Origin: Planctomycetota bacterium
GTDB lineage: Bacteria > Planctomycetota > UBA8742 > UBA2392
Assembly: GCA_019912315.1 (NCBI GenBank)
Contig: JAIOJA010000040.1
Location: 1-64,000, forward strand
DNA length: 64,000 nt
Direction of reading: 5' to 3'
The notes below the pieces were generated by a model. It did not search any database. It saw only the letters and a program-made list of their open reading frames with translations, and had not been told where the DNA came from. This document shows positions 11,564 through 16,049 of this stretch, one piece after another. The stretch's first letter is position 1. The number at the start of each line of letters is the position of its first letter. A program made the translations under genes and the position numbers.

Positions 11564-12463
11564 TCAGCCGCCGGTGCCATTTCCGCCGGTGCCATTTCCG
11601 CCGTTGTTGCCGTTGTTGCCGTTGTTTTCGCCTTCGGCAGGTGTCTCCGCGGCGGGTTGCGGCGACTGTGCGGTAAACAGGCGGAAGTTCTCATCGAGCT
11701 TCGGGAAGTCCGGCATTCGTACAAGCGACTCATACACCGCGTAGCGCTTGTGGGTGCGGCGGTTGTAGGCGTCGATCGGCGTCGCGTCCATGATCAGCTC
11801 AATGCGGATCGCGTACGGAAGGCGCTCCTCGTCATCGGTGTCCCAGCGGTCCAGCTCGCTGCTTGAGCCGCGCCGCACGATCTCTTCCAGCGCGGCCGGG
11901 TCGATCTTGCCCTCTTCCGTTACGGCGTCGCGGGGCAGGTCGTAGTACCAGACGCGAAAGCTGACGACGCGGTCGTGAAGCAGCAGCCCGAGGCCGCCTT
12001 CATCCGGGCGTTTGTCGACGCTGAAATCCTCGCGCCGGTACAGGCTGTAGAGCCCGTCGAGGGGGCTGCCGTCGTCAACCTTGTTTTCCTTCACGTAATA
12101 GCCGACTTCCGTGAGGTCGCTGCTGATGCCGTTGTAGCGCAGGTAGCTGTCTATGGAGGTGACGAACCATAACTCATCCTGCGCGTCATCGTCGCCGCCG
12201 TTGTGCTCGCCGAGCATCCACTTGCCGTCCATCTCGACGTTGTCGTCGGGCCCCGTGGCCCAGGTGTTGCGCAGGTCGCGCGAAATGATGGCCATGATGG
12301 CCGGGCCCAGCCTGCGGGCGCGCGCTTCGGATTCGACGGAGATCTTCGCCGTCACCGTCGATTTCAGAATCATGCCCAGAGAGGTCATGATGATCGCCGT
12401 GATCAGCAACGCGATGGTGATCTCGATCAGCGTGAAGCCCTGTCGGCGCGTGCGGCGGATCAT
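11564..12463 (-). CDS. Type II secretion minor pseudopilin, GspJ-like
   Basis: 299 residues. The prepilin signature G-F-T-L-I-E-I follows a short basic leader (cleavage after Gly, Glu at +5), with a hydrophobic helix up to about residue 35 and a soluble domain. Size and last position in the operon fit GspJ, which caps the pseudopilus with GspI and GspK. The C-terminus ends in an unusual Asn/Gly/Thr low-complexity tail (G-N-N-G-N-N-G-G-N-G-T-G-G-N-G). ATGA overlap with the upstream gene indicates translational coupling. Assignment to J rather than another minor pseudopilin comes from size and order. Confidence 0.75.
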   Translation of the reverse strand: MIRRTRRQGFTLIEITIALLITAIIMTSLGMILKSTVTAKISVESEARARRLGPAIMAIISRDLRNTWATGPDDNVEMDGKWMLGEHNGGDDDAQDELWFVTSIDSYLRYNGISSDLTEVGYYVKENKVDDGSPLDGLYSLYRREDFSVDKRPDEGGLGLLLHDRVVSFRVWYYDLPRDAVTEEGKIDPAALEEIVRRGSSSELDRWDTDDEERLPYAIRIELIMDATPIDAYNRRTHKRYAVYESLVRMPDFPKLDENFRLFTAQSPQPAAETPAEGENNGNNGNNGGNGTGGNGTGG

Positions 12464-13128
12464 GGGCCCTCCTCAGGTGCGGGGGCTTCGTCCGTTTCGA
12501 CGTCGGCATTGAACAGCACGGCCGGGTCCACGTACGTCACGAGCTTGATGCTTTCGCGCTGGCGGGGCTGCGAGTCGCCTTCTTCGTCCTTTTCGTAGCC
12601 CGGAAGCTCGGGCAGGTAGACGATCAGCGTAATGCGGACAACGCGGGCGGCCGCCTCCTCACGCGGGTCACCCTCATCAAGCGGGTCGCCGTTGTCGTCG
12701 AGGGGCTGTTCCCAGAGGTCGAGGTCTTCGTCGTTGCCGATGAAGTTAGGGCCGATGAAGATGAGCTCTTTGGTTACTTCCCATTCGAATTTGGCGAAGT
12801 GGTTGCGTTCGACCCAGTTCTCGTTGATGCGTCCGTTGATGTCGTTGACGCGCTCATCGAATTCCGCGAAATCGCCGCTGTCCTGGATGAACCAGGTTTC
12901 TTCGTTTTCGGGATCAGGCAGGTCCTGGCTGATGACTTCGGCCATCTTCATCTCGGCCAGCCAGGCGCCGGAGTGGTGATCGCCGCTGCGGATGAACTGG
13001 TGCAAAGCCTGGTTGCGCACCTGCAGAAGTGCCAGCAGGAAAATGCCGATGAACAGCACGGCGACCAGCACCTCGATCAGCGCGAAGCCGCGACGTCGGT
13101 TTGCCGAAACGGAGGGCAGACGTTTCAT
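12460..13128 (-). CDS. Type II secretion minor pseudopilin, GspI-like
   Basis: 222 residues. The leader M-K-R-L-P-S-V-S-A-N-R-R-R is followed by G-F-A-L-I-E-V-L-V-A-V-L-F, the prepilin peptidase site with Glu+5. One N-terminal helix, then an acidic soluble domain (many D/E from residue 70). The A-L-I-E-V-L-V-A pattern is usual for GspI/PilV-type minor pseudopilins. It overlaps both neighbours by ATGA (12460-12463 and 13125-13128), so the four genes form one tightly coupled operon. Confidence 0.75.
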   Translation of the reverse strand: MKRLPSVSANRRRGFALIEVLVAVLFIGIFLLALLQVRNQALHQFIRSGDHHSGAWLAEMKMAEVISQDLPDPENEETWFIQDSGDFAEFDERVNDINGRINENWVERNHFAKFEWEVTKELIFIGPNFIGNDEDLDLWEQPLDDNGDPLDEGDPREEAAARVVRITLIVYLPELPGYEKDEEGDSQPRQRESIKLVTYVDPAVLFNADVETDEAPAPEEGP

Positions 13129-13769
13129 CGCAGTCTCTCCGGCTCGGGTGGCTTGTGCTCGCCGGGATAAATCTCGGACCCGCCGGTGAAGGGGTTCAGC
13201 ACGACGGTGTAAAAGTCTTCGTCTTCGTTGGTCAGGTACACGTAGTGCCAGTGGGCGCCGCCCGTGGGCATGAAGTCGATTTTGACCTGCGAGTCCGTGG
13301 TACTGGAGCCGTCGGCAAACGCGATGCGGTCAATCCATACGGCGTACACACGCGAGCCGTCCCCGCGCTTGCGGGTCGGCATGTCATGGAAGCCGACGGG
13401 CTTGCGGGCTTCCTCATCATCGCCTTCATAGTAGTCGCCCTCTTCAACCGTTATGGGCGCCCAGACGAAATAGCGCTGCTCGTCTTCATCCAGCCCGTAC
13501 TCGACTGTGTAGCGACGTCCGTTGATCGCGCTCAGAGTGCGCACGTGCTCCAGGAAGCCGCCTAGCTGGCGGGCTTCATTCTTGAGCTGCTCCTTGTTGC
13601 GCAGTCCAAACGCCGCCGCAACCGCAACCATCATGATCAACAACCCCATGATCATCACGACCATGACGATTTCGATCAGGGTGAAACCGGATCGCGCAAA
13701 ACGGGCGGCCCTGTGCGCGCGGTTCAAACCGCGCAGGCCGCCCGGCAACTTATGGCAGGTGCGCCGCAA
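13125..13769 (-). CDS. Type II secretion minor pseudopilin, GspH-like
   Basis: 214 residues from a TTG start at 13769, supported by GAGGAG 6 bases upstream. A long 27-residue basic leader precedes the prepilin motif G-F-T-L-I-E-I-V-M-V-V-M-I-M-G-L-L. The middle section (R-T-L-S-A-I-N-G-R-R-Y-T-V-E-Y) resembles the strand region of GspH/FimT. It begins 3 bases after the GspG-like gene stop. Function: minor pseudopilin helping assembly of the pseudopilus that drives substrates through the outer membrane secretin. Confidence 0.75.
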   Translation of the reverse strand: MRRTCHKLPGGLRGLNRAHRAARFARSGFTLIEIVMVVMIMGLLIMMVAVAAAFGLRNKEQLKNEARQLGGFLEHVRTLSAINGRRYTVEYGLDEDEQRYFVWAPITVEEGDYYEGDDEEARKPVGFHDMPTRKRGDGSRVYAVWIDRIAFADGSSTTDSQVKIDFMPTGGAHWHYVYLTNEDEDFYTVVLNPFTGGSEIYPGEHKPPEPERLR

Positions 13770-13772
13770 GGG

Positions 13773-14177
13773 CTACTCCTCTTTGACTTCTCCGGCCTGG
13801 TTGAAGAAAATATCCTTTTCAGGCACTTCCGCGCCGCCCTCGGACTGGTCTTTGCCCAGGCATTGAAGATCAAAGCCTTCTTCGGTGACGCCGTAGATGA
13901 AGTCGTCCTTGGTCCAGGGGTCCTTCGGTACGCCGTTCGGGAAGTGCGGGTCACGCAGTTCTTCGAGGGTGTCCGGGTAGGACTGGTCGTGCTCAAGCGA
14001 GTAGTGGGACAAAGCCTGCTGGATCTGGGACATGTCCGATCGGGCCTTTTCCCACTTGGCTTTGTCCGGCTTATCGAGCACGAAGACGAAGGCCATGGTG
14101 CCGATAATGCCGAGAATGACGATTACGACCATCAGTTCGACAAGCGTAAATCCTTTACGGTCCTTGCGTTGAATCAT
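13773..14177 (-). CDS. gspG: Major pseudopilin GspG
   Basis: 134 residues. The short leader M-I-Q-R-K-D-R-K-G is followed by F-T-L-V-E-L-M-V-V-I-V-I-L-G-I-I-G. The K-D-P-W-T-K-D-D-F-I-Y segment corresponds to the D-P-W-G-x-P-Y loop of GspG near its calcium site. The A-L-x-x-Y-x-x-x-H-x-x-x-Y-P-x-x-L-x-x-L pattern is also typical. First gene of the four-gene pseudopilin operon. No GspC-F, secretin, GspK or prepilin peptidase gene is in the window, so the rest of the machine must lie elsewhere. Length is normal for the family. Confidence 0.88.
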   Translation of the reverse strand: MIQRKDRKGFTLVELMVVIVILGIIGTMAFVFVLDKPDKAKWEKARSDMSQIQQALSHYSLEHDQSYPDTLEELRDPHFPNGVPKDPWTKDDFIYGVTEEGFDLQCLGKDQSEGGAEVPEKDIFFNQAGEVKEE

Positions 14178-14284: not shown

Positions 14285-15337
14285 CTAATCTTCCGGTTCC
14301 GGGTCGAATTCGACGAGACAGCTCTCGCCTTTCTTGAACCCGGCATCGGTGAGCTCGTGCTCAAGCTTGCCGTTCTTGATGACTTTGACCACCCCATCGC
14401 CCGGCAGACGGGGGCAGTACCAGGTTTCGACGCCGTCGTTCTCGACTACGACGCACGGCAGCTTCAGCTTGCCAAGCGTGAAAGTTTCTTCTTTGACCTT
14501 CGCGCGCTTGTCGCCCGGTTCCGGCGCTTTCAGCTCGATGGATTTTTCGCCGCGTTTGACCTTGTCCTTGCCGGCCGGCGCAAACGTGACGACCTCATCA
14601 CCGTACGCAAGCCACTCGCCTTCGCGCGTGTCGTACAGGGGCAACTGCGGGTCGTCCGCGATGCTGAACGGCCTCAGGTCACCTGCGGCCTTGATCAATT
14701 CCGCAAGCTGTTTGGTGTCTTCGTCGCCGTTCTTGGGCTTGCCGACGCTGGATTGAATCCATGACCACTTGTGGGCGATTCTGCCCTGCGGGTCGATCCA
14801 GAACCCCATGTTCGGCAGCAGGCCCCAGGCTTCGTGAGCGCGGTCGTCCATGGCGTCCACCAGCACCACCCAGTCTTCCTTGCCGGCGCTCTTTAGGTCC
14901 CTGGCGGCTTTCTCGCGGTTCTTGTAGGTCTGGTGGGTGTCGATCTTGATCTTGTTGCCCTTCATTTTCCATCCGCCTGTGGATGATGCGTCGCGACGGT
15001 CTTCGGGGCCGTCGTCCGGGTGGGCTTCCCTGGTGTAGACGAACAGGAAGGCGACTTCTTTGCCGTGTTCCGCCTGGAGTTTGTCGAGGGGCTCGAACTG
15101 AGCCACGCAGGGCGGTCAGGTGTAGCTGCCGAACTCGATGAATACCCAGCGCCCCAGATAGTCGCGCAGGTTGACCTCATCGCCGGCGGTGTTCTGCAAG
15201 TGCAGTTGCGGCGCGGGTTGCCCGATGGCGAGAGCCTCTTTTCTGTGAAACTCGCTGAACGGGTTGCTGCGCCCGCGCTGGGCGCAGACACTGGTGATAA
15301 CAAGCAGCAACAGGGCCGCACTGATGGCGTATCTCAT
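14285..15337 (-). CDS. Deiodinase-like selenoprotein (Sec encoded by TGA), exported
   Basis: Reading continuously through one TGA (15116-15118) gives 350 residues. Residues 1-19 form a signal peptide ending V-C-A. A thioredoxin-like fold follows, with G-R-W-V-F-I-E-F-G-S-Y-T-Sec74-P-P-C77. About 30 residues on is Y-T-R-E-A-H106-P-D-D-G. Further down come V-V-L-V-D-A-M-D-D and L-L-P-N-M-G-F-W-I-D-P-Q-G-R-I. This series matches the iodothyronine deiodinase family (active site F-G-S-C-T-Sec-P-P, then E-A-H-x-S-D-G-W, then V-V-x-D-T-M and L-P-E-R), where Sec and His are catalytic. A stem-loop starts 11 bases after the TGA. The in-frame GTG at 15106 has no ribosome site and would lose the signal peptide and the active site. 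About 100 residues at the C-terminus (from about 245) are extra and unassigned. Likely a periplasmic thiol/seleno-redox enzyme; iodothyronine as substrate is not implied. Confidence 0.85.
15070..15115 (-). promoter_or_regulatory. Candidate bacterial SECIS element after the TGA
   Basis: On the minus strand, 11 bases after the TGA, an upper stem GGCTC (15104-15100) pairs with GAGCC (15094-15090) around the loop AGTTC. The loop has G in its second position. The distance from TGA to the loop is 16 bases. An outer stem CCGCC (15115-15111) pairs with GGCGG (15074-15070) and can extend by TG/CA past one bulged base. Spacing and loop agree with the known bacterial SECIS pattern (E. coli fdhF also has 11 bases before its upper stem). 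Prediction only. Confidence 0.65.
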
Positions 15338-15386
15338 GAGATTCTCCCGTGGCCATGTAACCCGGGCCGATGGCGCCGGTAGCGTC

Positions 15387-16049
15387 CTAATCCCCGCCGA
15401 TAAAGTAGGCCGTGATCAGTTGCAGCGCGATCGTGTACTGCCCCGCCGCCGAGAATGTTTCGCGCAGGTGCGTATCCAGCCAGTCCATGCGCAGACCGAG
15501 TTCAAGAAAGGCGAACAGCAGCGCATAGGGCGTCAGCAGGATGACGTAGCCGACGCCGCGGTCGAAATAGACACGTTTGCGCGGGCGCGACTTCCACATA
15601 AGGAAGACTGCTGCGCTGACGCAGATCAGGGCGATCGGGTACCAGCGCACGAACAGCCAGAAGGCGTGGTCCGGCGCCTGCATTCCCGTCGCGTTGGTGA
15701 GTTGCCGTTGCAGCAACTCGCTGAGTATGCACGCAAGCGGCACGATCACGAACAGCGCCAGGTTGACGTGCCTGCCGAAGTTGCGCTTGAGACGGTCCTC
15801 GCCCAGGTTGACCAGACGCCAGCCCAGCAGGCTGGCCATCAGCAGCGCGACCAGCGTGTATGAGGGAAGTCTGCGAGCTTTCAGCGCAAACATCCCGTCC
15901 CAGGACTCACCCGGAACCAGCCACAGCAGCCCGCAGACAACCAGCAGCCCGAAGCCGACCCAGCCCGTGTACCAGGCAAATGCCTGCACGCCGCGATCAA
16001 ATGACCTCTTGGCGCGCGAGGCTTTGCGGATGCTGCCCTTTGCTGTCAT
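15387..16049 (-). CDS. Multi-span membrane protein, unknown
   Basis: 220 residues with five to six predicted membrane spans (about 27-47, 63-80, 95-112, 130-150, 165-185 and possibly the C-terminus). Positively charged loops (R-K-A-S-R-A-K-R, K-S-R-P-R-K-R) suggest the N-terminus is inside. No family recognised. It sits 49 bases upstream of the deiodinase-like gene on the same strand and may share its transcript. A link to electron supply for the exported selenoprotein is conceivable but not shown. Confidence 0.7.
   Translation of the reverse strand: MTAKGSIRKASRAKRSFDRGVQAFAWYTGWVGFGLLVVCGLLWLVPGESWDGMFALKARRLPSYTLVALLMASLLGWRLVNLGEDRLKRNFGRHVNLALFVIVPLACILSELLQRQLTNATGMQAPDHAFWLFVRWYPIALICVSAAVFLMWKSRPRKRVYFDRGVGYVILLTPYALLFAFLELGLRMDWLDTHLRETFSAAGQYTIALQLITAYFIGGD

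Follow-up and report, generated by a model that had tools for sequence, protein, structure and literature searches.

Deiodinase-like selenoproteins are already known from bacteria. In 2005, Zhang et al. reported both Sec- and Cys-containing deiodinase-like proteins, together with bacterial SECIS elements, from the Sargasso Sea metagenome, and suggested that these proteins act in redox reactions (PMC1088965), and a 2026 review tabulates a "Deiodinase-like protein, PF00837, UxxC", with MFL2763324.1 as the example (PMC13188914). Here, we describe a gene at positions 14285..15337 (minus strand) of a 64,000-nucleotide stretch of a Planctomycetota contig (JAIOJA010000040.1; hereafter, the window), which is a well-supported further member of this group, sharing with it the PF00837 domain, an in-frame UGA, a bacterial SECIS-like hairpin, and the occurrence of both Sec and Cys forms. 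The clade to which the window gene belongs adds a C-terminal domain and pseudopilin neighbors, neither of which is mentioned in the available portions of PMC1088965 and PMC13188914; the lineage, the gene order, and the retained proton-relay residues are likewise not described in these portions.

With the animal enzymes DIO1-3, the window protein has in common a homologous domain, the G-S-x-T-Sec-P-P motif, and, in DIO3 numbering, Ser167, Thr169, Tyr197, Glu200, His202, Trp207, and His219. On the other hand, it carries Tyr in place of Cys168, Trp in place of Cys239, and Cys in place of Phe173, so that the proximal (Cys168) and distal (Cys239) cysteines of an animal-type deiodinase are both absent from the aligned protein, and it possesses a probable signal peptide, an additional C-terminal domain, and a bacterial-type SECIS. 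Cys168 is needed to recycle oxidized DIO3 (PMC9141512). A proximal Cys is missing from the DIO2 chain as well. The TlpA/ResA thiol-disulfide oxidoreductases resemble the window protein in their thioredoxin fold, its probable export, and a CxxC-type motif but give weaker matches, and the window protein has a deiodinase-specific EAHPxDG...W...H segment. The NCBIfam model NF038285 (deiodinase_rel) aligns to residues 37-190 at 84.7 bits, far under its curated cut-off of 250 bits, which excludes assignment to this equivalog.

Reading frame, domains, and homologs

The minus-strand frame runs from an ATG at 15337 to a TAG at 14285 and comprises 350 codons, with a single in-frame TGA at codon 74 (15116..15118), giving a 350-aa product when TGA is read as Sec. 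The first-pass annotation had the coordinates, the position of the TGA, and the residue number exactly right, and its single frame through the TGA holds; it omitted the strand, which is minus, and the plus strand across 14285-15337 contains no open frame. A Shine-Dalgarno-like GGGAG (15344..15348, minus strand), read from the sequence, lies 6 nt 5' of the ATG, and the frame opens with a probable signal peptide (MRYAISAALLLLVITSVCA; 15281..15337, minus strand), judged by eye to be cleaved near AQ, like its homologs. Third-position GC is 0.81 upstream and 0.80 downstream of the TGA, and the segments by which the family had been recognized (G-S-Y-T-TGA-P-P-C, E-A-H, V-V-L-V-D-A-M, and L-L-P) are all present in the read-through product as GSYT-U-PPC, EAHPDDG, VVLVDAMDD, and LLP. 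Ordinary gene callers split such a gene in two.

The iodothyronine deiodinase profile PF00837 spans the TGA, aligning to residues 37-188 (14774..15229, minus strand) with an E value of 9.6e-20 and 71.3 bits against a gathering cut-off of 27, in line with the alignment proposed on first inspection. The family hallmarks are kept, namely Sec/Cys within G-S-x-T-U-P-P as well as Glu200 and His202 within the EAHPxDG..W segment, and the best PDB sequence matches are DIO3 (4tr3, E 7e-9) and DIO2 (9h48), followed by TlpA/ResA-like thioredoxin-fold proteins. The earlier assignment to the deiodinase family thus stands by homology; it does not imply deiodinase activity, Cys168 and Cys239 of DIO3 being missing and a UxxC Cys being present. 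The C-terminal domain (residues 220-350; 14288..14680, minus strand), of ~130 residues, gave high-scoring matches only to this gene in relatives and is nearly confined to the window clade. An AlphaFold prediction for the window protein, using one homolog, was discarded (pLDDT 39). An Rfam search of the window returned nothing at gathering scores, and a viral_contigs scan gave no matches.

Deiodinase-like selenoproteins are common in the phylum, the homolog search having returned matches in 74 of 392 sampled Planctomycetota genomes. The homologous sequences run on past the TGA, as had been anticipated, and across 85 aligned sites in these 74 genomes the equivalent of codon 74 is TGA in 72, Cys in 12 (a count that includes L099, a distant thioredoxin-like match), and Ser in one, bearing out the expected Sec or Cys at this site. 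The Planctomycetota MAG HKST-UBA87 has a gene 65% identical to that of the window, and its TGA occupies the corresponding codon.

The non-Sec forms deserve separate mention. In one planctomycete family (f28), Cys forms (TGC, CGPF) occur (L038, L064, L070, L076, L077, and L100) and a selA match is absent in four of the five genomes seen; here, the Sec-to-Cys switch accompanies loss of the machinery. The Ser form, a close relative in genome G068 (L032 1501-2460 / L061 6692-8023), has TCG at the Sec site within GSHS-S-PEC, keeping the Cys, and is an open gene whose frame continues into a GspG-like soluble domain as a fusion. Because Ser replaces Sec in this relative while its genome retains selA, Sec appears to have been dispensable at least once.

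Selenocysteine machinery and SECIS-like hairpin

The same assembly encodes selA (553 bits), selB (332 bits), selD (396 bits), and a tRNA-Sec (selC, 72.9 bits; tRNA-SeC(tca) according to ARAGORN) that adjoins selA; all four genes that the first-pass annotation had singled out are therefore present. The selD gene itself (L011 1501-2424; G000:C52:40679-41602) contains an in-frame TGA, and the selenophosphate synthetase of this genome is probably also a selenoprotein. Across the sampled genomes, selA was matched in 58 of the 63 with a TGA gene versus 187 of the remaining 329 (Fisher 1e-8, from a hand tally of two lists).

Directly 3' of the TGA lies a SECIS-like hairpin, GGCUC-AGUUC-GAGCC (15090..15104, minus strand), the loop of which begins 16 nt past the UGA and carries G at its second position, providing the bacterial Sec signal, with a G in a small apical loop, that had been expected. 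It is the centroid structure when the 42 nt past the UGA are folded, and its p value against synonymous recodings is 0.012; with a short stem of 5 bp, the signal from the window gene alone is modest. Plain whole-segment folding energy did not separate TGA from non-TGA genes and was replaced as the SECIS test by a hairpin-specific score, devised only once the sequences had been inspected: the best uninterrupted stem with a 3-6-nt loop and G in the first two loop positions, starting 17-28 nt from the U of UGA, compared with 500 synonymous recodings per gene. The mean z was 2.24 in TGA genes (n = 72) versus 0.33 elsewhere (n = 13), with a Mann-Whitney p of 8e-6 that is optimistic, related sequences not being independent. 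Stems of 5 bp or more closed by a small loop containing G occurred in 61 of 72 TGA genes versus 5 of 13 others. In the commonest register, represented by 16 genes, five stem positions are paired in all 16, and at four of these both sides have changed (C-G to T-A or A-T, G-C to C-G); one further position pairs in 15 of the 16 genes, using several pair types. Near relatives of the window gene retain three stem pairs with covariation (C-G/G-C, U-A/C-G); in other clade members the stem lies a few bases downstream (CCAUUUC-GGU-GAAAUGG), in a register different from that of the window.

Because PF00837 extends across the TGA, the machinery is encoded, the TGA is conserved, and the hairpin is present, the gene is read as a selenoprotein, not as a sequencing error or a pseudogene, and we put the probability that its product is a Sec-containing member of the deiodinase family at about 0.9. 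TGA as a genome-wide sense codon was rejected, many ORFs in the window terminating with it (20 of 46 long non-overlapping ORFs, from a crude ORF list).

The UxxC clade and its possible roles

The motif GSYT-U-PPC occurs in ten TGA genes, every one from the order of the window organism, and these form with the Ser form a single clade (100/100, IQ-TREE), nine of the ten being long enough for inclusion in the tree. Cys77 (15107..15109, minus strand), the last residue of U-P-P-C, is invariant in the ten TGA members and retained in the Ser member, whereas nearly all other homologs have Phe, as do animal deiodinases, in which Phe follows U-P-P. His219 is kept in the clade, whereas most other planctomycete homologs have Pro. 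In an IQ-TREE analysis of ~150 columns, animal DIO2/DIO3 fragments nest within the planctomycete TGA genes, adjoining L102 (99/81; G020) and L112 (97/95; G005); with planctomycetes alone sampled, this placement hints at, but does not establish, where animal deiodinases originated.

The UxxC motif, with a Cys three residues past Sec, suggests that Cys77 may act as resolving thiol. A role as thiol-dependent oxidoreductase or peroxidase, not in thyroid hormone metabolism, would be most likely, and the version of this role in which Cys77 resolves the intermediate is one that we moderately favor. SelB would read the hairpin just past UGA74, with Sec-tRNA inserting selenocysteine, and the protein would be exported to the periplasm or surface. 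The mature protein would consist of a deiodinase/peroxiredoxin-like thioredoxin-fold domain and the clade-specific C-terminal domain. Its selenolate may attack an oxidized or electrophilic substrate, putatively a peroxide, a disulfide, or a halogenated aromatic; the Se-X intermediate would be converted to a selenenyl sulfide via Cys77 and then reduced by a thiol donor, and the deiodinase-type Glu/His residues would donate a proton.

Gene neighborhood and alternative readings

The next gene downstream encodes a GspG-like pseudopilin (T2SSG, N_methyl; 13773..14177, minus strand), syntenic in three further genomes, and is followed by three more pseudopilin-like genes (11564..13769, minus strand) that have N-terminal methylation motifs; two of these genes fall slightly short of the Pfam cut-off. 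Upstream lies a conserved 220-aa membrane protein (15387..16049, minus strand) without a Pfam or NCBIfam match; seven other genomes also carry it ahead of the selenoprotein gene. The order nuoE-like gene, membrane protein, selenoprotein, pseudopilin genes, and dnaE is common to the window and three additional genomes. This order, together with the in-frame GspG-like fusion of the Ser form, would fit a selenoprotein serving the pseudopilin (type II secretion-like) genes, e.g. as a redox chaperone. Such a functional link is possible but weak, because the gene order is lost in one genus, three genomes of which have just the membrane protein beside the selenoprotein and no GspG match near it within the stretches read; moreover, the GspG-like protein has a single Cys and the dnaE and nuoE neighbors are unrelated, so that we regard this reading as quite improbable. 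Even less credible is that the TGA is a true stop, the gene being a pseudogene, a sequencing error, or the source of a second protein from GTG 15106. A 273-aa ORF from this GTG does exist, but it would lose the catalytic strand and residue, the identical TGA recurs in nine other clade genomes and at a further 62 sites across the phylum, coding signal flanks the TGA on both sides, and Sec machinery and hairpin are present; this reading is already refuted unless the entire family has been misread.

Dehalogenation by the window protein is possible. The protein could be an extracytoplasmic bacterial reductive dehalogenase that works like the animal deiodinases and strips natural halogenated aromatics of iodine or bromine, and this is consistent with the retention in the clade of the Glu200/His202/His219/Trp207/Tyr197 set, including the His219 that is mostly Pro in other planctomycete homologs. 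However, Cys168, on which DIO3 recycling depends, and Cys239 are absent, UxxC is a motif characteristic of thiol-disulfide enzymes, and halogen-related neighbor genes were not found, making this unlikely. Tentatively, the order may have made an exported UxxC enzyme out of a deiodinase-type selenoenzyme by placing the resolving thiol three residues after Sec instead of two before it, with the proton relay kept, and this enzyme could be a natural bacterial dehalogenase of iodo- or bromo-aromatics, a reading that we consider doubtful. As a compact natural variant, the window clade lends itself to asking how deiodinase-type selenium chemistry depends on the resolving thiol and what role the family played prior to thyroid hormones.
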